Positions 14,944 to 35,672 of a stretch of 64,000 bases of DNA are shown in pieces. The notes below the pieces were generated by a model that made no database searches, was not told the DNA's origin, and saw only the letters and a list, made by a program, of their open reading frames with translations. Position numbers and translations under genes: made by a program. The stretch is from Laspinema palackyanum D2c (GTDB lineage Bacteria; Cyanobacteriota; Cyanobacteriia; Cyanobacteriales; Laspinemataceae), in the NCBI RefSeq assembly GCF_025370875.1, contig NZ_JAMXFD010000010.1, forward strand, positions 1 through 64,000, in the 5' to 3' direction. Every line of letters starts with the position of its first letter. Within the stretch, counting starts at the first letter, position 1.

Positions 14944-15486
14944 TTACTCAAATACGGGCGGCCATAAATCAGCAATTGGCATTTCCCAACCCGGGAATAA
15001 TTCGGGAATTGTTAAAGTATTTTCGCTATTTAAAACGGTAGTTTCTCCCGTGGGACGATAGACGGTTACGGTTTCTTTATCGGGGTCCACTAATATCCCG
15101 ACTGTTGTTCCTAATGCTAAAAATAGTTTAATTTTATCGGCGAGGGGATTAAGGCGATCGCTTTTAGATTTAATCTCTACCATCAAATCTGGAACGAGGC
15201 GCACAAAATCCCGATTACTGCGCTTGATTCGGTCCGCAAGAACAAAGGATACATCCGGTGCTCGCAAGTCCGTATTCGGCAGGATAAACCCACCACTGGA
15301 GTCATAAACTCGCCCCAATCGCCGGGGATTTACCCACAGTTTCAGCAAAAAGGTAAATTGAGCACCAATTTCGCTAGATGTATCATCGGATGGACCCATT
15401 GCCTTAATACCTCCATCAATTAATTCCAGGTTCCACTCGGGATGTTCTAATTGGACTTGTTCCAGGTCGGCAATTGTTAAACTCAT
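14944..15486 (-). CDS. Uma2 family endonuclease-like protein (DUF820)
   Basis: A 180-residue member of the Uma2/DUF820 family, which has a PD-(D/E)XK nuclease-like fold and is hugely expanded in cyanobacteria. Visible landmarks are LELIDGGIKAM near the N-terminus, LRAPDVSFVL (about 93-102), the catalytic-type strand PDLMVEIKSKSD (about 118-129) and VGILVDPDKETVTVYRP. The physiological substrate of the family is not established. AGAGG seven bases before ATG supports the start. It lies 30 bases downstream of the methyltransferase-like gene on the same strand and may be cotranscribed with it. Confidence 0.85.
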   Translation of the reverse strand: MSLTIADLEQVQLEHPEWNLELIDGGIKAMGPSDDTSSEIGAQFTFLLKLWVNPRRLGRVYDSSGGFILPNTDLRAPDVSFVLADRIKRSNRDFVRLVPDLMVEIKSKSDRLNPLADKIKLFLALGTTVGILVDPDKETVTVYRPTGETTVLNSENTLTIPELFPGWEMPIADLWPPVFE

Positions 15487-15516
15487 AACTTAACCTCTCT
15501 GTAGCTTTATTTAATT

Positions 15517-18468
15517 TTAGCTTAAATCCGGTTCAGTTTCAACTTGCTTTTTCTGACGCGATCGCAATGCTGTTGCTGCTTTGAGGATTTTCAAGCGATA
15601 GGGGTCAGCATCTTTGCGCCAAAATACGGTATTTCCCCGAATCTCGGCACAATTTTCTTCTAACCGTTTTTGCCAACTTTTAAGGGTTTTAATCTCCCAG
15701 GGTCGGTCTAGCAATCCCCGATTTTCTTCCTGATGGGTCAGTTTAACCAGTTTTTCATACTGGGGATAGTCCGGAGTGACACAGGCATCTTTGCGATGGA
15801 GAATAGGGGGATTATCATCTTTGTCATAGTCTCGATAAATCACCCGCAAATCGATTAAGTCAATATCCATCCGGGTATGTAAGCGGGGATGGGTTTCTTT
15901 GTCAAAATTGGGGTAAAATAAATAAGATATTCTCGGCTTTTTCAGGCTAAACTTAATTAAAGTGGCCTCATCCATCCGGCCAATTGCCCGACTCACGACC
16001 CCTTCATAAATTCTCAGTAAGGGTTCGAGGGTTTCTAAGGCGGAAACATGAACGGTGAAACTATTAGGTTTGAGCAATCCCACGGAACTATTTTTACAGC
16101 TACTTGCCACTAATTGAATATCATTTAAACTAAAAACCAGTTGTTCTGCCATAATACAGGCAGTCCGATAGGAGGGAAAGAGTGCTTTAATATCATTTTG
16201 AATTTCTAAGGGTAAATGAGACAGTTGGACTCGTTTTAACAAGTTAGTAACAGCAATATAAGTCAGGAGGTCTTTGCGGCGTTTTTCGGTGATTGCCTCC
16301 CATTCTTCCGGGTGAGTGAACTCCATAATCACTTTAAAGGCGCGGCGCAAATTGCCAAATTCGGCGATAATTTGCGGTTCTTGGGGGAGTTCTCCGGGAA
16401 CTGGCAGTCTGCCGCGATCGCTGGCAAATTCCATGAGTGGCGTCAGGATTTCCCGATACTCATCAAAACTTTTCAGCAGTTTAGGCACCGTCGTCCGACT
16501 GCGGAACCGATACGCCTGAATCCGTTGTGCCAGTTGTTGGTCCCGAAAGACGAAATAAATCCCCAACGCCACAGGAATTGCTTCCACTTGGAGCACAGTT
16601 TCGATATACTGTTTCAGTTCTTCCTGTTCATAATATTTCTGAAAAGTATGGCGGCGCGTAATTACTCCATCTCCATAGGCAACTTGACCAGAATTGCGGT
16701 CATCCACTAACACTAAAGATGCAACAATTAACACTTTTTGGGTCAATTCCCAGGATTGAATCAGCGCTTGTCGGCGTTCTTCTAAATCTTCAATTACATT
16801 AATGATATAACCCAAATTTACCACATCTGCCGGAGTCCGAGGTGTATCTGGAGAATAATACGGGTCCCAACCACTACTCGGAAATCCTTGTTCGGCAATG
16901 CGTTTAATATCTCCCCCATGACCACATCCATAATCAAAAAAGGTCGTTCCTTCAGTAAAAAATCCCGCTTCTAATCCTAATCGCATGGGACGGGATATGG
17001 CATTTCTGACAATTGCAGCGCGATGGCGTTCGATTTTGGGGGTGGTTTTTAGGGTTTTATTTGTTGTTTTTGGTTCTGATGTGACAATCACCGTATGTCC
17101 CTGAATTTCGACCCCAGCATCGGCCAAATGTTCTAACCATCCATTGCGCGTTCCAATCCCCCGAGACTTTTTTAATAGTCCTAATTTTTCTTCTGCTTGG
17201 GTGAGGTTTTCAAACAGTTCATACAGCGGATAATCTGGGGTGACAAAGGTTTCTTTACGGTGGAGAACGGGAGGATTATCTGCTTGGCGATAGTCTCGAT
17301 AGCGAATTCGACCTTCGGGGAAATGAATCTGTAGACTTGCCTCTAATGCCGGATGTGGGTCAGTGTCAAATTCGGGATAAAATAAATAAGAAATAATCGG
17401 TTTATCAAGGTTGAATTTAATTAAGGTTGCGCCATCGACTCGTCCCAAATGACGACGGACAACTGCTTCGTATAAACGCAGGATTGGGTCTAAAGATTCT
17501 AGTGCCCAAGCATGAATATACAATGCACCGGGTAGCTTTTTCCCGAGGGGACTATTTTGGGAAGCGGTGGCGACTCCATCCGGTGATTCTAATTGGGATA
17601 ACAAGTTTTGCGCCGCTTGTTTTGCGTTATTCCAATTCCCAAATAAGGCGCGAAAATTAGCTGCAATTTGCGGGGAAAATTCCGAGAAGGAGGGAACGCG
17701 CTGTTTCTCCCAAATTAGACTTGCTAGATAAATTAAGGCATCTTGACGGCATTTTTCCTGAATTTGCTGCCAAATTTCCTCGGAGGTTGCTGCTTGAATG
17801 TGATGGAATGCTTGTTCTAAACTGCCAAATTCTCGGATAATTGCTTTGGCGGTGGATAACTCCTTAATCTGGGGTAACCGTCCCCAGTCCCCGATAAACT
17901 CCATCAACGGGGTGAGGATTTCTTCCTGTTCAATTAATGCAGTAGCATCCGGGTTGAGGGGAGGAATTATTGAGCGCGATCGCCCTAAATTGAAGTGATA
18001 AATTTGAGCATCTGCCGGATTGCGAAAGATGAAATAAACCCCCAATCCTGCTGGGGTTGCCTCGACGGATAAGATGCGTTCTAGTTCAGTTTTAAGTTCT
18101 ACTTGTTCATAATAGGTCTGAACCGAATTTATGGGAATTACGCCCTCTTTCCCATAAGCAATTTTTCCTCGATTGACTTCGGAAACGGTGACTGAGGCAG
18201 CGATAATTAAAACATTTTCGGTCAATTTCCAGGCATCCTGCAAGACATCCTCACGTTCTTCCGGGGACTGGATTATATTGAGGATATCGGCAAGATAAAC
18301 AACATCCGCAGGATGGTGATTGGCATCTCCCCCATAGTCCAAAAACGTGGTTTCAGCAGTCAGAATTCCCGCTTCTCCGGCGAGACGCAGGGGACGGGGG
18401 AGATGGCGGTGAACCGATGCCAAACGGTCTAGTTTAGTTGGGGGTAGCGGCAAACTGGATTTATCCAT
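15517..18468 (-). CDS. DNA phosphorothioation-associated putative methyltransferase, tandem two-copy form
   Basis: About 983 residues from ATG at 18468; an in-frame TTG at 18522 would add 18 residues without support. It consists of two copies of one domain of about 490 residues. Both share RPLRLGxEAG, a block ending in a Tyr-Tyr-Glu-Gln motif, VEATPxxLGxYFIFR, a Leu/Pro-rich EILTPLMEF block, and a terminal NPPxLHRKxxxVTPDYP. The second copy has a normal SAM-binding-like segment, TFFDYGCGHGGDIKRIAE followed by GWDPYYSP. In the first copy this is collapsed to TFLDYGGDANHHPADVV, lacking the CGxGxD loop and the following strand. Only the C-terminal copy therefore looks able to bind SAM. The family is named for its recurrence in dnd loci; substrate unknown. 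Confidence 0.82.
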   Translation of the reverse strand: MDKSSLPLPPTKLDRLASVHRHLPRPLRLAGEAGILTAETTFLDYGGDANHHPADVVYLADILNIIQSPEEREDVLQDAWKLTENVLIIAASVTVSEVNRGKIAYGKEGVIPINSVQTYYEQVELKTELERILSVEATPAGLGVYFIFRNPADAQIYHFNLGRSRSIIPPLNPDATALIEQEEILTPLMEFIGDWGRLPQIKELSTAKAIIREFGSLEQAFHHIQAATSEEIWQQIQEKCRQDALIYLASLIWEKQRVPSFSEFSPQIAANFRALFGNWNNAKQAAQNLLSQLESPDGVATASQNSPLGKKLPGALYIHAWALESLDPILRLYEAVVRRHLGRVDGATLIKFNLDKPIISYLFYPEFDTDPHPALEASLQIHFPEGRIRYRDYRQADNPPVLHRKETFVTPDYPLYELFENLTQAEEKLGLLKKSRGIGTRNGWLEHLADAGVEIQGHTVIVTSEPKTTNKTLKTTPKIERHRAAIVRNAISRPMRLGLEAGFFTEGTTFFDYGCGHGGDIKRIAEQGFPSSGWDPYYSPDTPRTPADVVNLGYIINVIEDLEERRQALIQSWELTQKVLIVASLVLVDDRNSGQVAYGDGVITRRHTFQKYYEQEELKQYIETVLQVEAIPVALGIYFVFRDQQLAQRIQAYRFRSRTTVPKLLKSFDEYREILTPLMEFASDRGRLPVPGELPQEPQIIAEFGNLRRAFKVIMEFTHPEEWEAITEKRRKDLLTYIAVTNLLKRVQLSHLPLEIQNDIKALFPSYRTACIMAEQLVFSLNDIQLVASSCKNSSVGLLKPNSFTVHVSALETLEPLLRIYEGVVSRAIGRMDEATLIKFSLKKPRISYLFYPNFDKETHPRLHTRMDIDLIDLRVIYRDYDKDDNPPILHRKDACVTPDYPQYEKLVKLTHQEENRGLLDRPWEIKTLKSWQKRLEENCAEIRGNTVFWRKDADPYRLKILKAATALRSRQKKQVETEPDLS

Positions 18469-18586
18469 AAGATTGGAGGTGTAACTCAGCAGCGATCGTG
18501 ACCCACCTTTTTCATACCACAAAACGGCTGCCGCCAGTCTAAATTTTTATTGCCGCTACCCCGTCACGGCAGAAACCGATGGAGAA

Positions 18587-19114
18587 TTATGCGCTAAATT
18601 TACTGCGGATCTCTTCGATTCGTTTGCGGTTTACCCCTAAATCAGACTGTCCTAACCGCGACGCCGATCGCACTTGAATGACATCGGACTTGCGATCAAG
18701 AAAAAATTCCACATCATCGACATATCCCATCAAAGAACTGGTAAACTCAGCATACAGATAATGAGCATCAGATTTAATTACCTTGGCATTCTCTGTTTCT
18801 TCGATAATCTCCTTGAGATGAGTAAATGCTCTTTTGGCCGAAGATTCATATCGTAACGGTTCAATCTTATGCTTTTTATCCGTTTCTTCCGCTTGAGAAG
18901 AGACACAATTGGGAGAAGTTGGACAAGGAGATAATTTTCCCATGCTGACGCCTAAGTTATCAGGACGTTCTCCCGAAAAGGAGAACAGACTGGCGATCGC
19001 ATTTGGGGAAATTTCAGCAGCGAATGCCGCCGGAGTTGGACCCAAATAACACAAGAGTGCCAAGGTGACCGAAAAACACAGAGTGAGAACTTTGACAGGA
19101 GATAACTTGTACAT
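18587..19114 (-). CDS. DUF1499 domain protein, exported
   Basis: A 175-residue protein with a signal peptide (core LTLCFSVTLALLCYLG, likely cleavage after AAFAA near residue 33). The mature domain has the DUF1499 signature: LSPCPTSPNCVSSQA near 61-75, AKVIKSDAHYLYAEFTSSLMGYVDDVEFFLD in the middle, and the closing VRSASRLGQSDLGVNRKRIEEI. The biochemical role of DUF1499 proteins is not known. It sits between the methyltransferase-like gene and dndE on the same strand but reads as a housekeeping exported protein rather than a Dnd component. Confidence 0.88.
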   Translation of the reverse strand: MYKLSPVKVLTLCFSVTLALLCYLGPTPAAFAAEISPNAIASLFSFSGERPDNLGVSMGKLSPCPTSPNCVSSQAEETDKKHKIEPLRYESSAKRAFTHLKEIIEETENAKVIKSDAHYLYAEFTSSLMGYVDDVEFFLDRKSDVIQVRSASRLGQSDLGVNRKRIEEIRSKFSA

Positions 19115-19172
19115 AAATCACCGTTTGATGTAAAATGCTCTTCTCATTCTAGCGGCAAAGGCAACTACTGGT

Positions 19173-19592
19173 TCACCGTTTCCCCTTTGATTCTTTCTCC
19201 GTTGTCTGACTCGCCACTGCCACATCAATTAAATGCTCAATTTTCTTGATATTCGGGTCCCCTGCCAGATACCCAATTCCGCGATGCAGATGCAAGCGAA
19301 ACTGTGTTGCCAAAGTCTCTTTATCCGTCCCCAATCCATCTTGGTGGCAGCGTTGTTTCAAGGCCAAAATTAAAATATCTGACATTTCCCCCCCAAAGAC
19401 TCGCCAACTCATTTCGACGTTACTATCTGCCGGAATTGGAACCGGAGATGGGGTAGAATTTTCCGACAAAGACTTACAAAATGCCCAACGGCATAAAATA
19501 TTCCATTGGTCAATTTTAGTATAACGCTTGAGTTTGCTGAGTTGTTCTTTTGCAGTTTGAGAGAGTTTAATTCGGTCGAGGGGTGGTTCCAT
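19173..19592 (-). CDS. dndE: DNA phosphorothioation protein DndE
   Basis: This 139-residue protein matches DndE, the small subunit of the DNA sulfur-modification complex. Landmarks are the N-terminal RIKLSQTAKEQLSKLKRYTKI, WNILCRWAFCKSL, and the family hallmark LHRGIGYLAGD near residues 103-113. Known DndE proteins form tetramers that bind nicked duplex DNA and act with DndC and DndD to insert sulfur. The Lys/Glu-rich tail (EKESKGKR) is slightly longer than usual. It is the last of three collinear dnd genes (C, D, E), 151 bases after dndD, with a C-tract/G-tract hairpin between them. Confidence 0.92.
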   Translation of the reverse strand: MEPPLDRIKLSQTAKEQLSKLKRYTKIDQWNILCRWAFCKSLSENSTPSPVPIPADSNVEMSWRVFGGEMSDILILALKQRCHQDGLGTDKETLATQFRLHLHRGIGYLAGDPNIKKIEHLIDVAVASQTTEKESKGKR

Positions 19593-19685
19593 TGATGGTG
19601 TAAAAATAAAGGTGGATAAACCCGACGTGGGTTAAGAATAGAGGTGTGGGGTAATTTAATAAACCTCTTGCAAAATTCTTTAAAG

Positions 19686-19704
19686 CCCCCCTTCTTAAGG
19701 GGGG
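19686..19704. repeat. CCCCCCTT/AAGGGGGG hairpin between dndD and dndE
   Basis: CCCCCCTT (19686-19693) pairs with AAGGGGGG (19697-19704) over a 3-nt loop, followed by TTGGGGGGAT. A matching hairpin lies between dndC and dndD at 21797-21817. The element is of a common cyanobacterial repeat type; within the operon it could reduce readthrough or affect mRNA stability. Confidence 0.65.
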
Positions 19705-19743
19705 TTGGGGGGATCCCTCCGTTATTTGCCAGAGTTTTATAGT

Positions 19744-21726
19744 TTACCAGAAATAGCCCTTTTCTACAACAGTTTTTCGGGTTGCGGGTTGATATTTGAG
19801 GAGGTAGCTATTGGCGATCGCCTCCTGTTCTACAAGGTGCTCATACTCAGTCTTGCTAATTTCCGTATCCGTAGATAGCAGAATCACCTGATGAGATGCC
19901 GAGGGAAAATAGCGTTCAATTAAATTATTCCGATGGGAAGAATCCAACCGTCCCAATGGGGTATCGATCGCCACTGGTAGATGCCGTCCCGACACTCGCG
20001 CCAATCCCCACAAAAAGGCGATCGCCAACAACTGCTTTTCCCCTGCCGAAAGACGATGTTTCGGCACAGGTTGACCCTCGGGGTTGTACAGGGACAATCC
20101 AAAACTTTGCTTATCAATCGCAATCCGATGGACTAAATCCACTTTATGTAACAGATAGCGGAAACAGTCCGTTACCTCCACCTCTAACTTATTTAACTTC
20201 CGCAGGGTCAACCGTTCCTTAAACAATTTCAGGGTTTCCTGAACCTTCTTCGATGACTCAATAATATGCTCATCATTTTGGCGTTCAATACTCCTTTCAC
20301 TGTACACCGCCAGTTCCTTCTTGAACCCCTCAATATCTTTCCCTAACTTATCGCATCGCTGCTGACCATTATTATAGTCCGCTTGAGCTTTCACCACTGC
20401 CGCTTGTGCGGCCTTCAATGCCGCATCCAGTTGTTCATAAATCTCTGGAGAAGGTGCCGATGCCAGTTGTCGTTCATTGAAGGTAATTTCCATCTCCAAT
20501 GCTTCCAAAGACTGCAACTTTTCCTCCGCCAACTTCACCTGACTTGGCAGTTCATGACGCAACACATTCGCCAACAAAGACAAGGTTTCTTCATCCGCTG
20601 ATAACCAGAAATCCTCTTCCGAACCAATTTCCCTATCAAGCGCCTCATCCTCTTGTTCCAGGAAGAACTTAACCTTATCCAACTGCTGCGGTTTCAGCTT
20701 CAATTTGTCCAGATATTCTACCAGACGACTGCTGCGTTCCTTCACCACATCCCGCGCAATTTTGGCCTGAAGAGATTTCGCCTCCCTTTCCCCTTGAACC
20801 TGCACATCATTCAGCAACGGTTGAATTAAAACCAGGGGTAAACTCCCCCCAGCTAATTCTCCCAAAGACTCGCGCATCTGTTCCAGACTTCCCTCTAAAC
20901 TGCGCTTTTCCTTTTCCAGTTGAGTCCGTTCCGCCGCAATTTTCCCCCCTTCCGAAATAAACTTATCCCAAGCATCCCGCTGCCGTTCATGCGCCTGTTC
21001 TAACTTATTTTGCAATCCCCCTAACTCTTGTTTGGCCTTATCCAATTCATCGTTAGATGTTGATAACTTTTGTTCAATTTCTTCCAAACTCGCCAACTGC
21101 TTTGCACTCGCCAACTTCTTCTGCTTTCGCCGGACCAAAATATCCAAATCTATGGATAACCGTTCCGCCAACTCCAACCCCAATAAAGATTGAATCGCAT
21201 CCACCACCACCGGAGGCGGCGTTTCCTGTTCCGCCAACTCCTTCACCTGTTCCCCATCAAACAGAAACAGATTAGAAATCCCCAACGGCAACAAATTCTC
21301 GATATATTCATCCCAAATATTCGTCAAATCCGTTCGCGGCCAATCTCCTTCCAAAATCCCTAAAGTATCCTTACCATCCTTGGGATTTGCTTCCCAATAG
21401 CGCACAATCCGCAACTCCACCGCCGCATCATTTTCAAAATGCTCAAACACCAACTCAATCCGAGTTTTTTCCACCGGATCCGAATCCCGAGTCACACATT
21501 GAGTCAGGAAATCACTATAATTCAAATTGCCTCGGGTCGAACATTGAGCGCGAGGACCATAAAGTGCCAACCGAATGGCATCCATCAGGGTCGTTTTCCC
21601 CCCACCATTCATCCCCCCAAACAGGATAATCGGACGAGTCTCCCCATGAATTTGGGGACGTAAATCAATCACTTGTCGTCCCATATAAGGACCAAAGTTT
21701 TGCAGAACCAGTTCAATAAAAATCAC
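19744..21726 (-). CDS. dndD: DNA sulfur modification protein DndD (SMC-like ATPase)
   Basis: This 660-residue SMC/Rad50-like ATPase is the canonical DndD of the locus. The Walker A is GGMNGGGKTT (37-46), long coiled-coil arms occupy about 190-500, the ABC signature is HRLSAGEKQLLAIAF and the Walker B is LPVAIDTPLGRLDSSHR. No CxxC zinc hook is visible at the coiled-coil apex. DndD supplies ATPase activity, thought to open or nick DNA for sulfur insertion by DndC. It opens with GTG at 21726 and lies 110 bases downstream of dndC on the same strand, directly upstream of dndE. Confidence 0.92.
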   Translation of the reverse strand: MIFIELVLQNFGPYMGRQVIDLRPQIHGETRPIILFGGMNGGGKTTLMDAIRLALYGPRAQCSTRGNLNYSDFLTQCVTRDSDPVEKTRIELVFEHFENDAAVELRIVRYWEANPKDGKDTLGILEGDWPRTDLTNIWDEYIENLLPLGISNLFLFDGEQVKELAEQETPPPVVVDAIQSLLGLELAERLSIDLDILVRRKQKKLASAKQLASLEEIEQKLSTSNDELDKAKQELGGLQNKLEQAHERQRDAWDKFISEGGKIAAERTQLEKEKRSLEGSLEQMRESLGELAGGSLPLVLIQPLLNDVQVQGEREAKSLQAKIARDVVKERSSRLVEYLDKLKLKPQQLDKVKFFLEQEDEALDREIGSEEDFWLSADEETLSLLANVLRHELPSQVKLAEEKLQSLEALEMEITFNERQLASAPSPEIYEQLDAALKAAQAAVVKAQADYNNGQQRCDKLGKDIEGFKKELAVYSERSIERQNDEHIIESSKKVQETLKLFKERLTLRKLNKLEVEVTDCFRYLLHKVDLVHRIAIDKQSFGLSLYNPEGQPVPKHRLSAGEKQLLAIAFLWGLARVSGRHLPVAIDTPLGRLDSSHRNNLIERYFPSASHQVILLSTDTEISKTEYEHLVEQEAIANSYLLKYQPATRKTVVEKGYFW

Positions 21727-21836: not shown

Positions 21837-23462
21837 TTAATCCTCTACATCATCATCAGCATCGAGAGTTGGATATTTCATCGTCCCCCAACTTAACTGT
21901 TTAACCCCAGCAACATCCTCATCAGTCCCCAAGGGTTTCATATCCCGATTTTTAAGCTGTTTAATCGCATAAACATCCCCTTCCTTAGCAGCAGTTTTTA
22001 AGTCCCGCTTGTAATGAGCATTTTCAATTGCTTCTGCCTGCGATCGCGAACTACTTTCAAAGCATTTCTCTAACGCATCATACACCCCCGTCCGTCGGGA
22101 TTTTGTATGATACTGATACTCCGTCCCAATCAATTTAGACATCAATTCCAAGTGCATCGTATCCGGGTTGCAGATTTCATGCAAAACCTCCCACTCATCA
22201 CTTCCCCACAACTGATTCCCAGCGCCAGGACGAGGGTCCTCAAACACTTCCCCGGTTACTTCTTCATAAATCTTAGGCAAGCTATCGTCAAATTCATGCT
22301 TCTCTTCCAGCCAAATTCTCCGAATTTCGCTGAGTTCTTCTAAAGTAATCAGGGTGATATCCTGCATATCTTCAGGACCATTTTTTCGGATTCCCGTTTG
22401 AGCCGATAGAACTTTTCTCAGCCAATGCTCCCGCCATTTTTTAAGGTAAGGTCCAGGAATAGGCACTACCGTCATTTCCCCCTCATTGTTGCGCTCAAAG
22501 AGTTCAACTTTCCCATAAATACGACGGAAGTCTCGTTTATCATGGTCTTCATGAATATCTAATTCATTACGAATTTCCAACAATGGCATCATCCATTCTT
22601 TTTCATCATCATTTTGGATCATGGCTTGCATGGATTTATCTTGATTGACAAGAGTACAAACCCAGCAACCAAAGCGAGAATCCCCACAACTTGGGGTAGA
22701 GGTATCAACAACGAGGGGACATTCATTGTCTGCTGTTGCACCCCGATACATAGTAAATAAATCTTTGTTACTTTGTCCCCAGGGATTTGACCACTGATTC
22801 AAATAAAGCCATACCTCATCATTGCGCCAGTCTTCGATAGGAGTATAGACTAAAGAATTAATCAGACTTGATCTAGGACTTAGGCGATCGCGCACCCTTT
22901 TTTCTTCGTGTTTTTGCATGGTTGCCGAACGGCTGACGCTTTCAGCCTTCCGCATACCTAAAACAAGAATGACTTCTCCATTGTCCCTAACCATGCTACG
23001 AATGAAGTTGTTAGCTGGCTGAATTTTTAAACGATCTGTACACCATCGAAAACGGGAACGAGGTGCTGGATAACCTTTTCCAATTAAACAGACCCAGAAT
23101 GTATCTTTAACTTTTGGGTGAAGCAAATTTGGCTCAAATGGCATTTGTTGTTCCATAGCTGCTTCTTTCATCCGGTCCAGCGATTTGCGAACCCATGTGG
23201 CAACAATTGGATTTTCGACCAGAGTATCGGTCGTAATTACATGAATAGTTTTGGTTCGCTTTTCCATTGGAAGTTGAGCGACTGCATTCCAGATTAACTG
23301 TAATGTTGCCGTGCTGTCTTTCCCCCCTGAATATCCCACAATCCAGGGAACTTCATCTAAACAATATAAAGATTGAACTTCTTGGGTTAGTTTTTCTATG
23401 TCCTCGACTAATTCATCCACACTGCGAGGTGGGAATAATGACATTTGCGATTGTTCTGACAT
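21837..23462 (-). CDS. dndC: DNA phosphorothioation system sulfurtransferase DndC
   Basis: A 541-residue PP-loop ATP pyrophosphatase of the PAPS-reductase type, clearly DndC. The PP-loop is SGGKDS at residues 45-50 (GYSGGKDSTATLQLIW). Four cysteines, C248, C259, C266 and C269, in ECP...SCGDSRFGCWVC fit the iron-sulfur cluster known for DndC, which carries sulfur to the DNA backbone. ATG at 23462 is preceded by AGGAG about 11 bases away. It heads a dndC-dndD-dndE run. Upstream, dndB lies on the same strand but is separated by an opposite-strand DGQHR gene, so the usual dndBCDE order is interrupted. No dndA desulfurase lies nearby. Confidence 0.95.
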   Translation of the reverse strand: MSEQSQMSLFPPRSVDELVEDIEKLTQEVQSLYCLDEVPWIVGYSGGKDSTATLQLIWNAVAQLPMEKRTKTIHVITTDTLVENPIVATWVRKSLDRMKEAAMEQQMPFEPNLLHPKVKDTFWVCLIGKGYPAPRSRFRWCTDRLKIQPANNFIRSMVRDNGEVILVLGMRKAESVSRSATMQKHEEKRVRDRLSPRSSLINSLVYTPIEDWRNDEVWLYLNQWSNPWGQSNKDLFTMYRGATADNECPLVVDTSTPSCGDSRFGCWVCTLVNQDKSMQAMIQNDDEKEWMMPLLEIRNELDIHEDHDKRDFRRIYGKVELFERNNEGEMTVVPIPGPYLKKWREHWLRKVLSAQTGIRKNGPEDMQDITLITLEELSEIRRIWLEEKHEFDDSLPKIYEEVTGEVFEDPRPGAGNQLWGSDEWEVLHEICNPDTMHLELMSKLIGTEYQYHTKSRRTGVYDALEKCFESSSRSQAEAIENAHYKRDLKTAAKEGDVYAIKQLKNRDMKPLGTDEDVAGVKQLSWGTMKYPTLDADDDVED

Positions 23463-24971: not shown

Positions 24972-26045
24972 CTACTGATTTTCCAAACGCTTCTCTTCCT
25001 CCGTTAACGGCAAATTTAAGCGCTTTTTCAGATAAGCAGTCATCCGCATCACGCTATTTGACCCTTGGGACAGTTGACCCTTGAAAATCACCCTCCCTTC
25101 CCAGTCTAAATGCGATCGCGACCAATCGACTTGCCGTAAGGGATCCAGATGGTCTTGCCAGGTGTCTGGATAAGTCCTGAGTAACGTGGCACCCACTGCG
25201 CCTAACCCGATTAAGGCGATCGCCTGAGTATGCAGGTAATCTCGCCGAATCTCATAGGCACTAACTTTGCGGTCTAATACAAGTTGCCAATCTGGAATAT
25301 GCCGACTGACTGCATTCCAGTAATCGACTGCCTGTTTGATTTGTGCTTCCAGGGGTTCCCCTTGCCAGTCTGCCAATAATGTCAAGGTTGCCTGACAAAT
25401 ATGGGGGAGTATAAACAGTTTACCAGACCGGGTGCTTAAATGACTGCGTTCGGTTTCCGTCAGGGTGCGGAATACCTCCACTTGCTGATATACTCCTCTC
25501 CCTAATGCCGCTTTGTCATCGCGATGGTCATACAGCAAGTTTAAGGCAGGGTCCGATCGCACCGGGTAGCGGTTGAGGTCACTAAAAATTTGCTGCGATC
25601 GCTTCAAACCCACATCCAGAAACAAAATCAGGGGAATCGTTTCATACCCCAAATCCGGATTCTGCTTCAATGCCGATTCAAATGCCACCCGCCGATGTTG
25701 ACCGTCATTGATGGTAAATCGCGCATCCATCGGCACTCGCAAGCGTCCGATTTTTCGCCCTTCCGCTTCGGTTCCCAGGGGTTCAAAGGTGATATCCGCA
25801 TCAATAGAGGCGGTAATCGCCGAGATAGTATAACTGCGGGGATTATCCAAAATATATTGGGTAATTTGCGGCACCCTTGTCCGATTCAGCGATCGCCTCC
25901 CCCGACTTTCTGGCGGCGTTTCCACCTGTTCCAGGGGGAACAGTTTCGGCAGGAGTCGCAGGGGACACATGGACACATAGTATTCCCGTCCCGCCTGTAT
26001 TCCCCGAACGACAGGTAAAACATATTCAAACGCGGTATTTAGCAC
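24972..26045 (-). CDS. dndB: DNA sulfur modification protein DndB
   Basis: The classical DndB: VLPVVRGIQAGREYYVSMCPLRLLPKLF at the N-terminus and the DGQHR motif in FTINDGQHRRVAFES. It also has LFLDVGLKRSQQIFSDLNRYPVRSDPALNLLYDHRD, then a helical C-terminal half. DndB is a DNA-binding protein that represses the dnd operon or modulates modification sites. I place the start at GTG 26045 because GGGAGG lies six bases upstream and this gives 357 residues, close to known DndB lengths. A TTG at 26126 would add 27 residues without support. It is separated from dndC by the opposite-strand DGQHR gene and transcribed divergently from the third DGQHR gene. Confidence 0.92.
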   Translation of the reverse strand: MLNTAFEYVLPVVRGIQAGREYYVSMCPLRLLPKLFPLEQVETPPESRGRRSLNRTRVPQITQYILDNPRSYTISAITASIDADITFEPLGTEAEGRKIGRLRVPMDARFTINDGQHRRVAFESALKQNPDLGYETIPLILFLDVGLKRSQQIFSDLNRYPVRSDPALNLLYDHRDDKAALGRGVYQQVEVFRTLTETERSHLSTRSGKLFILPHICQATLTLLADWQGEPLEAQIKQAVDYWNAVSRHIPDWQLVLDRKVSAYEIRRDYLHTQAIALIGLGAVGATLLRTYPDTWQDHLDPLRQVDWSRSHLDWEGRVIFKGQLSQGSNSVMRMTAYLKKRLNLPLTEEEKRLENQ

Positions 26046-26218
26046 GATCGCCCTCCCGGTATGTGCGGTAGATGGTATCCCACTGGCAACTCCCCCTTTT
26101 ATTTTAGACTGCTCTTGACGAATCAAGATTAATATGTTATAAGCAAACCGGATTTAATCCCTTTGTTTTAGTAAAGCACAAAAAGTTTTTAAAAACCAGC
26201 TTTTTAGCAAAATAGTTA

Positions 26219-27989: not shown

Positions 27990-28724
27990 ATGTCAATAAC
28001 TAAGCGGTGTCTTGCAGAGTTCATTGGAACGTTTTGGTTGGTCTTTGGGGGATGTGGCAGTGCAGTGCTTGCGGCCTCTTTCCCCGATTCAAACAATGCT
28101 TTGGGAATCGGACTCTTGGGGGTGTCCCTGGCATTTGGGTTAACGGTGATGACGATGGCATACGCGATCGGTCACATTTCGGGGTGTCACTTGAATCCAG
28201 CGGTTTCCCTGGGTTTATGGGTGGGAAAACGGTTTCCAAAAACCGATCTCGTGCCTTATATCAGCGCGCAAATCGGTGGGGGGATTTTTGCTGGGGGACT
28301 TCTTTATCTGATTGCCAGTGGTAAACCTGGATTTACTCTCATGGATGGATTTGCCGCGAATGGTTATGGAGTACATTCTCCCGGTGGCTATTCAATGTTA
28401 GCCGCTTTGGTGACTGAATTTGTCTTGACCTTCATGTTTTTGTTTGTGATTATGGGAGTAACCGATCGCCGGGCTCCTCAAGGTTTCGCACCCGTGGCGA
28501 TCGGGTTAGCATTGACCCTGATTCATTTAATTGGCATTCCCGTTACTAATCTTTCAGTCAATCCTGCACGCAGTATCGGACCTGCAGTCTTTGTCGGGGG
28601 TTGGGCGATGGCACAACTCTGGTTATTCTTGTTAGCACCCCTGGCCGGTGCCGCTTGTGCTGGACTTGTCTATTCCACACTGGTGGGTGATGTCAAACTG
28701 CGGCGCATGAAGCTAAAAATCTAA
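27990..28724 (+). CDS. aqpZ: Aquaporin Z-type water channel
   Basis: A 244-residue major intrinsic protein with six membrane helices and both NPA boxes, HLNPAVS and SVNPARS. The residue before the second box and the aromatic/arginine filter region (ARS after NP) are of the water-selective AqpZ type rather than glycerol facilitators. It begins [28 protein letters not shown], typical for AqpZ. It mediates fast water flow across the plasma membrane. It follows the third DGQHR gene by 78 bases on the same strand but has its own strong terminator and is probably an unrelated housekeeping gene inside the island. Confidence 0.95.
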
Positions 28725-28861: not shown

Positions 28862-29332
28862 TTACAAAAATCGACTGAGGTCAAAATCATCGGGTTCTGA
28901 GGTGGTTTTTTTGAAGCGTTCTGAGAGGAGAATGAGAAGGATTCGTTCGGTATAGTCTACAGCACCCCGTAACTCTTCGCGGAGGATTTCTAGGCCGCCG
29001 TTGGCATATTCTTCAAAGATATGCGCGCGTTTTTCTTCAGAATCGGGGTCGTTGGGGGCGATAATTTTGGAGTCTTTGGTTTCGGCGATCGCCAGCAATT
29101 TAATCACCAAATCATATCCTTTCGTGACAAAGGTATCGATGTCTATTGGACCCGGTTCGGTTTTAGAAATTGCGCCGAGGGGAACTCGTTTTTTGCGTTT
29201 TGCACCCAAGGCGGCAGCAAAAACGAGAACATCAGTAAAGTGACGAAATACGCCGGTTTTGTTGTCCGATGAGGTTAAGGAGGTGACTAAATCTGCTTTA
29301 TCTTTGGCAACCTTAATTCGATATGCACCCAT
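28862..29332 (-). CDS. Dnd system-associated protein 4-like
   Basis: This 156-residue protein resembles the small family called dnd system-associated protein 4, found near phosphorothioation genes. Visible conserved blocks are YRIKVAKDKADLVTSL, TGVFRHFTDVLVFAAALGAKR followed by KKRVPL, IDIDTFVTKGYDLVIKLLAIAETKDSKII, and EEYANGGLEILREEL. It is mostly helical and soluble. The biochemical function of the family is unknown. It is on the minus strand, convergent with aqpZ and not obviously in an operon, but lies between the dnd core and the SMC/helicase module, which supports a Dnd link. Confidence 0.75.
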   Translation of the reverse strand: MGAYRIKVAKDKADLVTSLTSSDNKTGVFRHFTDVLVFAAALGAKRKKRVPLGAISKTEPGPIDIDTFVTKGYDLVIKLLAIAETKDSKIIAPNDPDSEEKRAHIFEEYANGGLEILREELRGAVDYTERILLILLSERFKKTTSEPDDFDLSRFL

Positions 29333-29415: not shown

Positions 29416-29442
29416 CATTTTCATCGTGGGAAAATCATCATT

Positions 29443-30653: not shown

Positions 30654-31577
30654 TTAGTTAGTTGCAGAAAATCTCCCTAATAATTCTTCCCGAGATAAAT
30701 TTCCTAATTGCAGCATCAGGACGCTCAATTCCTCCGGAGATAATGCCAACACCGGGTCAATCAACGCGGAAAGTTCCTCATCTAATTCCCCAAAGCGTAC
30801 CCGCAAGAAATTTTCTATCAATTGGCGCTGTCCCTGCTGAATCCCTCGCTGTTCTCCTATTTGTTCTCCTTCGCGGATTGCCTGTTCTCGGTCTTGTTGA
30901 TAAAGTGGTGCTAATCGCATAATTAACTCCCGTTCTTCTGCATCATTACTTTGATTAATTTGTAAATTTTGTCGCAGGTTGTAAAGCATTTCTAAGGCAA
31001 CTGCCCGAAAAGGGTTGTCCTGTGGAAGTGCTTCGAGTTCGTCGATCGCTCGTTTTTGGACTGTTCCCCGTCCCAGAAGTCTCAACCATAGGGTTTCTGA
31101 GGTGCGCGGTAGTTGGTGAATCACGACGATCGCCGTTCTGAGGGAGTCCCCCATTAAGTACACCCCAGGCAACCAATTTGGTTCTATGATAGCTCGAAAT
31201 CCATTTAAAAGGTTGGCCGAGGCGGTGGGGGTGAGTATCCATAATCTGGGTAAGTCTGACTCTTGAACCCGCGTATTATTCCGGTTCGCTTCTCGTTGGT
31301 AATCTCCCCGAACTTCTAGCAATTTTAAGAGACAATTACAAATGTCGTCGGTGTTAGCGGGGTTACGAAAGGGTTCAAAGATTGCTGGGGTCCCTGCTAA
31401 TCGTCCTAATAATCCTAATCCCGCAAGATTGGCATCCGCTTCCGGGGAGGGTGCAAACCAAACATCGATTTCTCGAACTTCTCCCGCAACTCGTCGGGAG
31501 GGTTTGACTTCTCCGTAGGGGGACAGCAATTCTTCTAAGTAATCTTTGGCAAATTGGTCATGAATAAATCGGGTCAT
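30654..31577 (-). CDS. DUF4351 / Rpn-type nuclease-related protein
   Basis: A 307-residue protein of a type widely multiplied in cyanobacteria. The N-terminal part (FIHDQFAKDYLEELLSPYGEVKPSRRVAGEVREIDVWFAP) resembles the PD-(D/E)XK-like Rpn/YhgA region, with EIDVWF near residues 35-40. A Gln/Glu/Arg-rich linker (EQAIREGEQIGEQRGIQQGQ) follows. A C-terminal DUF4351 domain (IENFLRVRFGELDEELSALIDPVLALSPEELSVLMLQLGNLSREELLGRF) ends it. Relatives are described as recombination-promoting nucleases or inactivated transposase-like proteins; the role here is unknown. It is flanked on both sides by palindromic repeat arrays. Confidence 0.8.
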   Translation of the reverse strand: MTRFIHDQFAKDYLEELLSPYGEVKPSRRVAGEVREIDVWFAPSPEADANLAGLGLLGRLAGTPAIFEPFRNPANTDDICNCLLKLLEVRGDYQREANRNNTRVQESDLPRLWILTPTASANLLNGFRAIIEPNWLPGVYLMGDSLRTAIVVIHQLPRTSETLWLRLLGRGTVQKRAIDELEALPQDNPFRAVALEMLYNLRQNLQINQSNDAEERELIMRLAPLYQQDREQAIREGEQIGEQRGIQQGQRQLIENFLRVRFGELDEELSALIDPVLALSPEELSVLMLQLGNLSREELLGRFSATN

Positions 31578-31596
31578 TTGTCATTTGTTTAAGGTT

Positions 31597-31827
31597 AGAA
31601 ACCGGGTTTCTTAATAAAGTTTATCCTAAATTGCAGCAACTTTTGCTAGAAACCCGGTTTCTGGTCCTAGGGTAAGGTTAGAAACCGGGTTTCTTAATAA
31701 AGTTTATGCTAAATTGCACAACTTTGGCGAGAAACCCGGTTTCTGGTCCTAGGGTAAGGTTAGAAACCGGGTTTCTTAACCAAGTTTATGCTAAATTGCA
31801 GCAACTTTTGCTAGAAACCCGGTTTCT
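31597..31827. repeat. REPIN-like array, three tandem 82-83-bp units
   Basis: Each unit starts with AGAAACCGGGTTTCT (at 31597, 31680 and 31762) and ends with its inverted copy AGAAACCCGGTTTCT, with a spacer of about 38 bases containing TTTATGCTAAATTGCA-like sequence. Two short hairpins in inverted orientation per unit is the architecture called REPIN. The array fills the gap between the DUF4351 gene and the SMC-like gene stop. Confidence 0.85.
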
Positions 31828-31842
31828 CGTCCCCCACTTCTT

Positions 31843-33915
31843 TTAAAATGCCTCGTCTACCTCCACGACTTCGGTATATTCAAATTCATTGGGACTGAAC
31901 TTAACTAATGGGTAGCGCATTCCTTTTAACTCGATCCAGTCTTCTTCACAATCGGGTTTGGGAGAGTTGTACACGAGGACATATTCTTTGCCGATATAAG
32001 GTTTCATTTCTTGGGCGACTTCTCCCCGCCATTGGGTTTTGGTGACTAAAACAACGAGTTGATTGGCAAGTTGTGGGAGGATTTTAGCAATTTGGCGGCG
32101 ATAAATTTCGTCTAAACTGCCAAAGGGGGAGTCCATGACGATGGGAAAGGTACTGCTATCCGGTCCCATCAAGGTGTTCTTTTTACTCCACTCGCGAACG
32201 CCATCGATAATACCGCCAATGAAGGATAAACTGAGGATTTGATTTTCGCCGGTGGAAGCGGCAACGGGGACTTCAAATCCGCTGGTATTTTCGATTAAGG
32301 TGAGTTCGTATTTGTCGCTGAGTTTGGGGAGATAGGGGGTAAAGGAAATTTCGCTAAAAATTTCCTGAACTCGCTGTTCGAGTTGGGTTCTAAATTGGTT
32401 TTCAAGGCGCGATCGCACCTCGGTTAAGCGGTCGATCGCATCCTGGGTGGCGAACACTCGTTTTTTGGCTAACTCTTGTTTTTCTTCGTTGGTTTTCTGC
32501 TTTTCAACTTGTTTATTTAATCGGTCAATCGCCCCCTGCAAGCTATCTAGCTGAGTTTGATTAGACCCGGATTCTCGGTCCAGTTCGCTCATTTTGCGCT
32601 CGATTTCATCTAGGCGTTTCTGCAACTCTTGGATGTTTTCATCGGGATAGCTTCTCAGTTTGTCTTTGATTTCATCGAGTTGGGTTTCTATGGAAGAAAG
32701 TTCGGTTCTAAATCCTTCTATTGCCTTCTGTTGGCGGTCCATTTCTTGCCAAAAATCAGGTACTTGTTTGTCGATCGCCTCAACTTGGGTGCTCATGCGA
32801 ATGGCGGTTTCTTCAATGTCTGCCATGCCTGCTTTGTCCATCCACGATCGCACCAATTGTCTGGCAGGATTGCCTTCGCTGAGTTCGGCACCACAGATAC
32901 AGCGTTGGCGATCGAGCAATTGTTGGACAAAGGGTTGTTTAATCCCTGCCGGTAATTCCCCTCGGTTGCGTAAATCATTGACTAGGGTTCTAAATTCGCC
33001 GGTAAATTCTCCCAGCAAAGTGATATAACCTTGGGTAGAAATGGCTCGTTTTAGCGCTTCTTTTGCTTGTTTTAATTGGTTACGAATGGAGGTATTTTGT
33101 TCCTCTAAATTTTTGCGCCGCTTTTGCAATTCTTCGGCACCGCCTAATTCCAGGAGGCGATCGCTGATAGTTTTCTTGAGTTGCGCTTGTGCTTCTAACT
33201 CTTTGGTAATCTCCGTTTGTCGTTTCTGAAGGCGAGTGCCGTCTTTCTCCCGGGTTGCCTTTTCTTTTAATAACTGTTTGGTTTGCGGATCGCCAATCGC
33301 TTTTAATTCATTTTCTAAGTTTTTGCGGGTTTCCCCGAGATGCCGAATTGCCCGATTTAAAACTTCTAATCCCAGTAATTTCTTAGTTGCTTCGGCAATT
33401 TCGGCTTTTTTCTCGGAACGGACGATATACTCGATGCGTTCTCCATCAAAAAAGAAGTATTGATGTAAACTTTCGGGTAAAATACGGCCAATAATATCAT
33501 CGGGATGTTGTTGCGGTGGAGGAGGGGACCATCTGCCATCATCTCCAGCGATCGTCATAAATAACTCACTGGAACCATGAGTGATTCCTGTCTCAGTATT
33601 GTAAGCGCGAATTAGGCGTTTTGCTTGATAGCGTTTGCTGTCATGTTCAAACACCAACTGCGCCCAACAGGCAACAGGTTCACCGGGTTTTGCTTCAGTA
33701 ATGGCGCGTTTATTCACCAGGCGATCGGGTCCGGCAAAAGCACCGGAAAATTGTTCATAAAGCACCCAAGTAAAGGCATTCATCAGCGTAGTTTTCCCGG
33801 ACCCATTATTACCATGAATAATGGTGGTATTATGCGACCCTCGGGATAAGAAAATTTCCGGGGTTCTCCCATAAAATTGGCGGAAATTACAAAGCGTCAG
33901 AGAAATCAGTTTCAT
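31843..33915 (-). CDS. SMC/Rad50-type AAA ATPase, second DndD-like protein
   Basis: This 690-residue ATPase has Walker A GNNGSGKTT (35-43), two coiled-coil arms (about 175-300 and 370-500) and a Cys-x-Cys element RCICGAELSEGN at the arm junction, resembling a zinc-hook knuckle. The ABC signature is STGENQILSLSF and the Walker B is FPIVMDSPFGSLDEIYR. It is related to, but clearly distinct from, the DndD at 19.7-21.7 kb, which lacks cysteines at the apex. Its ATG overlaps the stop of the upstream 97-residue gene by four bases (ATGA), indicating translational coupling. The helicase gene lies just upstream of both. A role as a DNA-sensing or restriction ATPase in the Dnd defence is inferred from context. 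Confidence 0.85.
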   Translation of the reverse strand: MKLISLTLCNFRQFYGRTPEIFLSRGSHNTTIIHGNNGSGKTTLMNAFTWVLYEQFSGAFAGPDRLVNKRAITEAKPGEPVACWAQLVFEHDSKRYQAKRLIRAYNTETGITHGSSELFMTIAGDDGRWSPPPPQQHPDDIIGRILPESLHQYFFFDGERIEYIVRSEKKAEIAEATKKLLGLEVLNRAIRHLGETRKNLENELKAIGDPQTKQLLKEKATREKDGTRLQKRQTEITKELEAQAQLKKTISDRLLELGGAEELQKRRKNLEEQNTSIRNQLKQAKEALKRAISTQGYITLLGEFTGEFRTLVNDLRNRGELPAGIKQPFVQQLLDRQRCICGAELSEGNPARQLVRSWMDKAGMADIEETAIRMSTQVEAIDKQVPDFWQEMDRQQKAIEGFRTELSSIETQLDEIKDKLRSYPDENIQELQKRLDEIERKMSELDRESGSNQTQLDSLQGAIDRLNKQVEKQKTNEEKQELAKKRVFATQDAIDRLTEVRSRLENQFRTQLEQRVQEIFSEISFTPYLPKLSDKYELTLIENTSGFEVPVAASTGENQILSLSFIGGIIDGVREWSKKNTLMGPDSSTFPIVMDSPFGSLDEIYRRQIAKILPQLANQLVVLVTKTQWRGEVAQEMKPYIGKEYVLVYNSPKPDCEEDWIELKGMRYPLVKFSPNEFEYTEVVEVDEAF

Positions 33916-34205
33916 TGAATTACTTCCTTAACAATTCTGAGGATATCATCGTTAATATTTCGGGGCATTTTCATATAGAGTTTATCTTTTTCTGCTTGTA
34001 AAACCCGCTCAATAATGGCGCGGACTTCTGGGGAGGCACCGGTGATCGGTTCTTCGATATCCCGCAGTTCCTCATGGGGTCGATTGCTGGGGTGATAGGT
34101 GGGCTGATTTTCTGCGAAAATGAGGTGTTTTTTGACAGGAACTGTCCCGGAAGGATAGGGGACTCCCAGGGTTGTATCTGATTCTGGCGGGTGACTGGCG
34201 TACAT
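33912..34205 (-). CDS. Small DNA modification system-associated protein (97 aa)
   Basis: A 97-residue protein with a polar N-terminus and a helical C-terminal half (ASPEVRAIIERVLQAEKDKLYMKMPRNINDDILRIVKEVIQ). It resembles the small proteins that recur beside SMC-like ATPases in DNA-modification loci; this is from memory of the gene neighbourhood, not a motif. GGGGAG lies 11 bases before ATG. Its TGA overlaps the ATG of the ATPase gene by four bases, and the helicase gene ends 69 bases upstream on the same strand. A stable complex with the ATPase, in near-equal amounts, is the natural inference. Confidence 0.7.
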   Translation of the reverse strand: MYASHPPESDTTLGVPYPSGTVPVKKHLIFAENQPTYHPSNRPHEELRDIEEPITGASPEVRAIIERVLQAEKDKLYMKMPRNINDDILRIVKEVIQ

Positions 34206-34274
34206 TTTGTGATTTTCTCCCCGATTGAAGTTTTACCCAATTGTCATCAATTTTACCTGGATTAACCCCAACTG

Positions 34275-35672
34275 TCAAAGACTTAATAATCCGTAAAATT
34301 TCTGAAGTTGGAGTAATTGCATTCGTGCTTCTCCGGCATTGTCGGCTAAATCAGCAAATTCTATGAAACGGTGCAATTCTTTTCTTAAGATATTTCGCTC
34401 AACTTCTAATGCTTCTCGGTCAAGTTTTGGTGGCATAACAATGGTATCAAAGAGCGTCGCCCGTTCCTTGTTGGGATGAGGGCGCAAAATTCGGCCCCGA
34501 CGTTGGATAAACTGGCGCGGATTGCCACTAGAGGCGAGAATAACAGCGGTTTTAATCGCGGGGATATCCACCCCTTCATCTAAACAGCGAATTGCCACTA
34601 ATCCTTGTAATTCTCCACTTTCAAATTGCCGTCGGAGTTCTTCTCGTTCTTCGATCGCCGTGTCAGCCGTATAGGTATTGACCCGATAGCCAAGTTCAGA
34701 CCCCAGCAGGTGAGAAACTGCTTCCAGTTGGCGATTACTGCCTCGGGAAGCGGACTCTTCAACGGTCCCATCGCCACAATAAAATAAAGTATGGCTGGTA
34801 TGTAGGCGAGTTTTCATTAACTCCCGCAACGCAGTTAATTTATTACTTGCTGACCCTACTAACCGGGCCCGTTGCATGACTAATCCTCTTAAATCTTCAT
34901 GATTGAGGTCCATGTTTTCTTGATGGCGTAATATCCACCCAATTCGCTTGGTTAATTTCAAATAAGCATAGCCTTCATTCTCAGTTAAATTCACCAAAAT
35001 TGGATGATAGAGATACCGCACTAATGCCCCTGCGCGAATTGCATCAGCAAGGGTCAGTTCCGGGGGAATAACCGGGCCGAAATAGTCGAGTAAACCCGCT
35101 GTTCCAGTCTCATCAAAATAGCGTTCAGGAGTGGCAGAAAGGGCTAATCGTAAGCCAATTTGCCGGGGTAAACTTTCTTCGAGACGCGGTGCACCCAGGT
35201 TGTGTGCTTCATCTCCTATAATCAAGGTTTTTGCAGGGAAGTACCGCAATTGAGACTGTAATCCCTCACTGATCAGGGTGGCATTGGTGGTAATAATTGT
35301 GAGAAAAGGTTGGAGGTTGGCGTTGACGTTGTAGAGTTGGGTAGAAAGCTGACTCTGCCAGGTGGAAACATTTTCAAAGGCTAAAATCGGGGCCAATCCG
35401 AACATCTCACATTCTCGCGCCCACTGATTGACGAGGTGGCGGTAGGGACAGAGGATGAGCAATACTTGTAATCCGATGCGCTGATAGAGTTCCGTGGCGA
35501 TCGCCAAGGCAGCGATGGTTTTGCCGCTTCCCGTTGCCATTTTCAGGGTTCCTCGTCCCTGGTTGCCAAACCAACTGGCGATCGCCTGCTTTTGATACGA
35601 TCGCAGCGTCAAATTAGGCGGCAGGGTCGGAACCCCCGGTCCCGATCTTTCAGCAGAATTCGATGCACTCAT
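34275..35672 (-). CDS. DEAD/DEAH-type helicase, candidate Dnd-linked restriction enzyme subunit
   Basis: A 465-residue superfamily-2 helicase. A Q-like start (LRSYQKQAIASWF) is followed by motif I MATGSGKTIAALAIA, motif II GDEAHNLGAPR, motif III LALSATPERY, a type III/UvrB-like linker, and motif VI QFIQRRGRILRPHPNK. No separate nuclease domain is visible within its length. It corresponds to the family annotated as DNA phosphorothioation system restriction enzyme in dnd loci (name recalled, not checked). With the 97-residue protein and the second SMC-like ATPase it forms a three-gene operon. Translocation on unmodified DNA, with cleavage by a partner, is a reasonable hypothesis. Confidence 0.85.
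   Translation of the reverse strand: MSASNSAERSGPGVPTLPPNLTLRSYQKQAIASWFGNQGRGTLKMATGSGKTIAALAIATELYQRIGLQVLLILCPYRHLVNQWARECEMFGLAPILAFENVSTWQSQLSTQLYNVNANLQPFLTIITTNATLISEGLQSQLRYFPAKTLIIGDEAHNLGAPRLEESLPRQIGLRLALSATPERYFDETGTAGLLDYFGPVIPPELTLADAIRAGALVRYLYHPILVNLTENEGYAYLKLTKRIGWILRHQENMDLNHEDLRGLVMQRARLVGSASNKLTALRELMKTRLHTSHTLFYCGDGTVEESASRGSNRQLEAVSHLLGSELGYRVNTYTADTAIEEREELRRQFESGELQGLVAIRCLDEGVDIPAIKTAVILASSGNPRQFIQRRGRILRPHPNKERATLFDTIVMPPKLDREALEVERNILRKELHRFIEFADLADNAGEARMQLLQLQKFYGLLSL

Follow-up and report, generated by a model that had tools for sequence, protein, structure and literature searches.

A PbeABCD-related module without the PLD nuclease part accompanies the DNA phosphorothioation genes of Laspinema palackyanum and other Cyanobacteriales

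The genes at positions 14944–35672 of the DNA analyzed here (64,000 nucleotides of Laspinema palackyanum D2c, contig NZ_JAMXFD010000010.1; hereafter, the window) probably constitute a cyanobacterial DNA phosphorothioation (PT) system, DndBCDE supplied with sulfur by an IscS-type desulfurase of housekeeping origin, and alongside it a PbeABCD-related CxC-ATPase module. This companion module is of a known kind and corresponds to the CxC-ATPase/PbeABCD system described in the literature. The new features are a helicase that lacks the PLD part and the order-wide co-retention in Cyanobacteriales of four genes that often lie far apart. The locus looks like a vertically kept, near-core PT system with a nuclease-free reader.

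Gene content of the locus

All of the dnd genes named in a preliminary description of this island were located by family profile matches (Table 1), and the gene identities assigned from these sequences are very nearly certain. DndB, DndC, DndD, and DndE each scored above the curated NCBIfam cut-off. DndC carries an SGGKDST PP-loop and a cysteine-rich stretch with GCWVC, DndE resembles the solved DndE structures 5wtu and 7x4e (E = 0.0011), and the window DndD contains no CxC motif. The two halves of the tandem TIGR04096 protein are 43% identical across 472 columns. The N-terminal copy is missing 25 residues where the DYGCGHGGD stretch sits, which we take to be SAM motif I and which the C-terminal copy keeps, and the lack of this glycine-rich stretch from one copy suggests an inactive/active pair. 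The double length of this methyltransferase-like protein is not unique to the locus, as open frames of 1007–1009 aa were found in all six Laspinema genomes of the sample; among the matches listed for other Cyanobacteriales, TIGR04096 lengths ranged from about 430 to 1065 aa.

Several genes between the dnd genes have no known dnd link. They encode a DUF1499 protein, aquaporin Z, a 317-aa protein belonging to no family, and a 307-aa protein with a weak match to DUF4351 (E = 0.022). The DUF1499 gene adjoins dndE, as it also does in Oscillatoria princeps (L013:21795), and the aquaporin Z gene occupies the same place in one related locus (L012) and is absent there in two others (L009 and L010). The membership of the Uma2 gene in the island is uncertain. 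The GC content was 0.43–0.47 along 14944–35672 (2-kb steps), compared with 0.46–0.47 in the right flank to 46 kb, and this likeness to the flank means that the locus is not a compositional island.

Table 1. Features assigned in and at the edge of the PT locus (positions in the window)
Feature	Position	Strand	Match or remark
Uma2-family putative nuclease, island edge	14944–15486	−	PF05685, 123 bits
Tandem TIGR04096 methyltransferase-like protein	15517–18522	−	1040 bits, two stretches
DUF1499 protein	18587–19114		
DndE	19173–19592	−	TIGR03184, 140 bits
DndD ATPase	19744–21726	−	TIGR03185, 669 bits
DndC sulfurtransferase	21837–23462	−	TIGR03183, 712 bits
DGQHR/DndB-family paralogue, 431 aa	23616–24911	+	PF14072, 293 bits; TIGR03187, 65 bits
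DndB	24972–26126	−	TIGR03233, 445 bits (cut-off 328)
DGQHR/DndB-family protein (PF14072, ParB-like), 553 aa	26250–27911	+	TIGR03187, 165 bits
Aquaporin Z	27990–28724		
Protein 4 (TIGR04062), PbeD counterpart	28862–29332	−	189 bits (cut-off 74)
CxC-type ABC ATPase, PbeC	31843–33915	−	PADLOC PDLC02753, 1098 bits, residues 1–649
97-aa protein, PbeB position	33912–34205	−	overlaps PbeC start by 4 nt
SF2 helicase, 465 aa, PbeA counterpart	34275–35672	−	TIGR04095, 647 bits (cut-off 600)

The companion module

The second ATPase, which had been described as SMC-like, is more properly a CxC/PbeC ATPase with the zinc hook CICG. The hook was CxCG in all of the best 80 of 359 relatives (CICG in 79 and CLCG in one), which were all cyanobacterial and 62–99% identical to the window protein, with Laspinema nearest. 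A homologue of the small 97-aa protein lay upstream of PbeC at every one of these 80 loci, overlapping the PbeC start by 4 nt at 71. The 97-aa protein fits PbeB in size and position, although its comparison with the canonical PbeB profile gave no match (probability 0.25%). That this ORF might be a second DndE was considered and rejected: it stands in the PbeB position, its N-terminus is variable, and the DndE fold is predicted for protein 4 instead. PADLOC and NCBIfam returned no PbeB or PbeD match, which is not decisive because the canonical proteins tested were also unmatched. As a separate observation, the complete PbeC gene is preceded by tandem repeats of its first 24–26 codons in three Okeania loci (L015:7436-8584, L020, and L022), with seven extra copies in L015.

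We identify protein 4 as PbeD with a predicted DndE fold, a reading based on position, profile match, and predicted fold together. In Ruegeria sp. THAF33, protein 4 is the last gene in a row of PbeA (694 aa), a 63-aa protein, the ATPase, and protein 4, which places it where PbeD would be; in another related locus (L065), protein 4 starts 7 nt before the end of PbeC. The family profile of protein 4 matched that of canonical PbeD, built from four sequences, with a probability of 48% (E = 1.9e-4), and eight other profile pairs compared gave 0.1–2.2%. No match to DndE was found at the level of sequence profiles (probability 2%). An AlphaFold2 model from 28 sequences (pLDDT 83, pTM 0.78) was compared by VIA-align with the 287 chains that a Foldseek ranking had put forward, of which 16 reached Z 2; the three matches listed were all DndE, namely 7x4e (Z 9.0, 111 residues aligned) and, each at Z 8.8, 5wtu and 4lrv. 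The Foldseek E-values to DndE were themselves weak (0.65–2.7, none below 0.001). With this assignment, the family so far called "protein 4" gains a predicted fold and role.

The helicase, the small protein, PbeC, and protein 4 likely act as one PbeABCD-like module. The available text of Xiong 2019 (PMC6459918) describes PbeA as a PLD, ResIII, and helicase-C protein, PbeB as a protein of 66 aa, PbeC as an AAA-domain protein, and PbeD as a protein of 152 aa, all four genes being needed, though pbeA only partly. The DndCDEA-PbeABCD system of Haloterrigena jeotgali A29 resembles the window in joining dndCDE to a cassette of helicase, small protein, ATPase, and ~150-aa protein. However, the small and ~150-aa proteins measure 66 and 152 aa in Haloterrigena and 97 and 156 aa here, the PLD domain of its PbeA is missing from the window helicase, and dndA is part of its operon, whereas no such gene stands beside the dnd genes of the window. 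Two genes also stand between PbeC and protein 4 in the window, unlike in Haloterrigena, and the presence of dndB and two DGQHR genes here is a further point of difference. In the parts of Rakesh 2024 (PMC10853773) available, PbeC is a CxC zinc-hook ATPase, PbeB is small and disordered, and PbeD is the cognate DndE of the ATPase. The systems centered there on a CxC ABC-ATPase and DndE share with the window a CxC ATPase with a DndE-fold partner in tandem with a canonical DndD-DndE system, but the vast majority include an HKD endonuclease, which is missing here. In Ruegeria sp. THAF33 (plasmid pTHAF33_d, L092), the helicase, named after TIGR04095, the small protein, the ATPase, and the TIGR04062 protein (167 bits) likewise stand in one row, which follows dndBCDE and a desulfurase gene at a distance of some kilobases. 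The Ruegeria helicase has 694 aa and an N-terminal HxK..GSxN signature (with no Pfam PLD), whereas the 465-aa window helicase lacks the signature, and the desulfurase gene beside dndE in Ruegeria has no counterpart beside dndE in the window.

Parts of this arrangement have been reported from cyanobacteria. The available text of Jian 2021 (PMC8569181) describes dnd genes as enriched in Nostocales, with no dndFGH and with disordered operons, and infers vertical inheritance in Cyanobacteriales; the window resembles those clusters in having dndBCDE without dndFGH, a variable layout, and apparent vertical inheritance. The term "Pbe" does not occur in Jian 2021. In Microcoleus (PMC8546630), a gene lying upstream of dndBCDE was described as encoding a "type-III restriction enzyme" and interpreted as restriction-modification, and the accessible portions of neither that paper nor Jian 2021 mention the absence of a nuclease domain from the enzyme. 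The Microcystis genome paper, in its available part, reports dndC-D-E as clustered. According to the portion of ProPhylo 2011 (PMC3226654) available, TIGR04062 and TIGR04095 were created as strictly PT-dependent families, the latter apparently a second PT-dependent restriction enzyme; that portion contains neither the DndE fold and PbeD role of TIGR04062 nor the nuclease-free nature of TIGR04095. Judged by titles and the beginnings of abstracts among the matches listed, no open-licence PMC paper deals with Pbe in cyanobacteria.

A helicase without the nuclease part of PbeA

The window helicase belongs to TIGR04095, a family named "DNA phosphorothioation system restriction enzyme". However, the PADLOC PbeA profile aligns to it only at positions 240–681 of 682, its best solved relatives are RAD25/XPB helicases, and the N-terminal PLD/HKD nuclease part of PbeA is missing, with no PLD domain identified by Pfam. 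Among the best 80 of 359 relatives, 64 helicase matches were found in 61 loci, and in all 61 of these the PLD nuclease part was absent from the helicase. The short helicases account for 61 of the 64 matches (403–526 aa, the shortest, in L074, being split). The three long ones (656–671 aa) are second copies in L037, L040, and L079, where they sit in complete canonical cassettes (PbeA, a 72–82-aa protein, a CxC ATPase, and a 152–157-aa protein) adjacent to the short module at the same locus.

Pfam detected a weak PLD domain in these three long helicases but did not detect one in any short helicase scanned (those of the window, L017, L070, L075, L093, and L095). Among five long PbeA proteins, however, Pfam also missed the domain in those of Ruegeria and Halorubrum, so a negative Pfam result for the short helicases counts for little alone. 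The absence of the nuclease part rests instead on protein length, the HxK..GSxN signature, and the PLD profile. All of the signature residues (H, K, G, S, and N) were invariant in five aligned long N-termini, and the signature occurred in all three long representatives and in none of the 61 short helicases from the best 80 of 359 relatives. The helicase motifs were kept in this same set (TGSGKT in 58 of 61, LSATP in 61, QRxGRxLR in 60, and the literal DEAH in 41).

A profile of the PbeA-type PLD part found no match in the host genome. Some match was obtained in 57 of the 185 genomes of the order, and a strong one (E below 1e-80) in 12. In four of these 12 (G020, G133, G149, and G165), the PLD part lies 46–569 bp from protein 4, so canonical cassettes seem to have entered there repeatedly. 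The spot just behind protein 4 has the appearance of an entry site in these four genomes and in L037, L040, and L079. TIGR04095 was matched at E ≤ 1e-80 in 51 of 156 genomes drawn from the phylum, 49 of them in Cyanobacteriales, and the two genomes outside the order had open frames of 731 and 745 aa. A short helicase also occurs in an archaeon: on a plasmid of Halorhabdus tiamatea (L093), a helicase of 477 aa with no Pfam PLD is accompanied by a 48-aa protein, an ATPase, and a relative of protein 4 (52.6 bits, below the cut-off), in a set split by an IS66 gene and with a DUF3578 gene alongside.

Layout and spread in Cyanobacteriales

The preliminary description had presented the island as expanded and rearranged, which does not hold as an oddity because the layout recurs in other cyanobacterial dnd loci. 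Among the best 80 of 359 loci, six markers (helicase, small protein, PbeC, protein 4, DGQHR_b, and DndC) were found together in 22, and all 22 showed the same marker order as the window, with DGQHR_b on the opposite strand. The remaining 58 loci did not show the full set in the DNA covered, owing to contig ends or dispersal. Counted per locus within that DNA, protein 4 was present in 43, DndC in 23, and DndE in 4 of these best 80.

Across the 185 Cyanobacteriales genomes, DndC was found in 160 (155 above the cut-off), the helicase in 159, protein 4 in 160, PbeC in 156, and TIGR04096 in 164. When DndC matches below the cut-off (G021, G099, G102, G150, and G167) were counted as absent, DndC, the helicase, PbeC, and protein 4 occurred all together in 146 genomes, in mixed sets in 19, and not at all in 20, the last group coming from at least eight families. 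Seven genomes had the three Pbe-like genes without DndC above the cut-off, although DndC was partially matched in two of the seven; in three others, DndC was present and the helicase, PbeC, and protein 4 were all missing. The Fisher values for this co-occurrence carry no correction for kinship. The coupling of the methyltransferase was looser, with 15 genomes having TIGR04096 without DndC above the cut-off.

The positions of the four genes were compared in genomes of ≤10 contigs with all four positioned among the matches listed (n = 35; further ≤10-contig genomes without a listed position for one gene were left out). The genes lay within 20 kb in 7 genomes, dispersed on one contig in 27, and on two contigs in 1, with the dispersed spans running from 55 kb to 3.6 Mb as the shortest arc of a circle of genome size. 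The clustered cases include G045, G052, and G115, and a number of drafts, including that of the window, are also clustered. Co-retention despite such dispersal would be unlike a mobile defense island, and it raises the question of why a supposedly sporadic defense is near-universal in one lineage. The DndC and PbeC distances were correlated (rho 0.66; 20 sequences, near-identical ones dropped), which indicates co-inheritance only, because the loci had been picked by PbeC closeness and share a phylogeny.

Sulfur donor and DndFGH

As the preliminary description had noted, neither dndA nor dndFGH lies in the window: tblastn found no desulfurase there, and DptF, DptG, and DptH queries, which recovered their own loci, drew no match from the window or from the best 80 of 359 related loci. 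The search for DptG and DptH covered only the window and these loci. For DptF (DndF; TIGR03238), it extended to the whole host assembly (7.03 Mb, 81 contigs, estimated completeness 100%), which gave no match, and to the 185 Cyanobacteriales genomes, host included, none of which exceeded the cut-off, with one weak match (G037). The model scored an annotated DptF at 525 bits, with no control genome positive. In the available text of Rakesh 2024, DndF was found in all DndFGH-bearing taxa, which makes DptF a fair marker.

The expectation that the sulfur donor is encoded elsewhere agrees with the genome, in which no desulfurase gene adjoins the dnd genes and SufS, IscS, and NifS-like genes are present. 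Of the search for dndA or iscS that had been proposed, only the second part returned a gene. No dedicated dndA exceeded the TIGR03235 cut-off in the host or the 185 genomes of the order, a weak test because no control genome was positive and two known dnd-linked desulfurases likewise fell below the cut-off. Ten places in the host genome matched Aminotran_5, six of which were scanned. Of the desulfurases, L001 is SufS, L003 is NifS-like, and L002, on contig C46, is IscS (552 bits against a cut-off of 548; 434.7 bits with the DndA model, under its cut-off of 480). L002 shares 53% identity with the desulfurase that Halorubrum trapanicum encodes next to dndE. Since IscS can replace DndA, according to the available part of PMC11662687, the sulfur donor is likely a housekeeping desulfurase, with the IscS L002 as the best candidate.

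Possible function of the module

A non-FGH module is present in the island, as had been proposed, and corresponds to the PbeABCD/CxC system already published (Xiong 2019; Rakesh 2024), but its role in restriction is unproven because the nuclease part of PbeA is missing and its profile is unmatched in the host genome. In the mechanism that we propose, a housekeeping IscS-type desulfurase would supply DndC, which would add sulfur to DNA scanned by DndD/DndE, while DndB and the two DGQHR proteins would tune the modification. The CxC ATPase, with protein 4 as its own DndE-like DNA reader, would inspect PT sites, and the XPB-like helicase would be a motor that blocks replication or access of unmodified DNA instead of cutting it. 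A nuclease-free motor is the simplest reading because, in the available text of Xiong 2019, the archaeal system halted viral replication with no cleavage visible and needed pbeA only partly. Exclusion without cutting has somewhat less than an even chance of being the mechanism. Our wider reading is put forward tentatively: in Cyanobacteriales, PT would be a vertically inherited, near-core function, and its usual companion, a nuclease-free CxC-ATPase/DndE-fold/helicase reader, would inspect or remodel PT-marked self DNA, excluding foreign DNA uncut or maintaining the chromosome. If true, the module would read PT and act on it purely as a motor. The available text of Rakesh 2024 argues that CxC/Pbe-type systems do cleave, in dispute with the replication stop without cutting of Xiong 2019. 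Cyanobacteriales, a bacterial order in which the module has been retained but its nuclease part has not, offer a natural experiment on this question.

The best rival outside defense is that the system no longer serves defense and has become a core function passed on vertically, be it epigenetic regulation, oxidative protection, or repair; the module would then read PT in the cell's own DNA. The high incidence of the four genes (DndC above the cut-off in 155 of the 185 genomes, the helicase in 159, PbeC in 156, and protein 4 in 160), their dispersal on one contig in 27 of the 35 near-complete genomes (among the matches listed), the missing nuclease part, and the vertical inheritance inferred in the available text of Jian 2021 all favor such a role. 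Vertical retention is, however, compatible with defense, the set is jointly absent from the 20 genomes of at least eight families, the genes are clustered in a number of drafts, including that of the window, and in some relatives a further PbeABCD cassette of canonical type, which looks defense-like, stands next to protein 4. We consider such a core role rather unlikely.

The best rival within defense, which we regard as unlikely, is a nuclease acting in trans, with a Uma2-family (PF05685) protein cutting DNA marked by the helicase complex in ordinary restriction. In 26 of the 73 loci with enough downstream sequence (best 80 of 359), the first ORF after PbeC was labelled Uma2; it overlapped the end of PbeC by 7–46 nt in 23 of the 26 (ORF starts being mechanical) and was often followed by a MazG-like gene and protein 4, and the window island itself ends in a Uma2 gene. 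On the other hand, the first ORF after PbeC was not Uma2 by blastp in the other 47 of these 73, and the window and three Laspinema relatives have a protein of 303–327 aa behind PbeC instead, with a weak DUF4351 match in the window copy. Uma2 genes are very numerous in cyanobacteria, so chance insertion behind PbeC is possible. The order of Uma2 on the PbeC 3' end and then a MazG/PRA-PH-like gene occurs in many Oscillatoriales loci (e.g., L040:12057-13043).

Cutting by a dndFGH system or PLD nuclease elsewhere in the genome is very improbable: the available text of Rakesh 2024 does report DndFGH as commonly decoupled from the modification genes, but DptF was unmatched in the host and above the cut-off in none of the 185 genomes (one weak match, in G037) despite the 525 bits of its annotated control, DptG and DptH gave no match in the window and the 80 loci to which their search was confined, and the PbeA-type PLD profile was unmatched across the 81 host contigs, at 100% estimated completeness. 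It is scarcely credible, too, that a restriction module was lost and left its Pbe-like genes to decay, as a PbeA without its nuclease part might suggest, given the intact helicase motifs, the order-wide retention, and the PbeC identity of 62–99% across the best 80 of 359 relatives.
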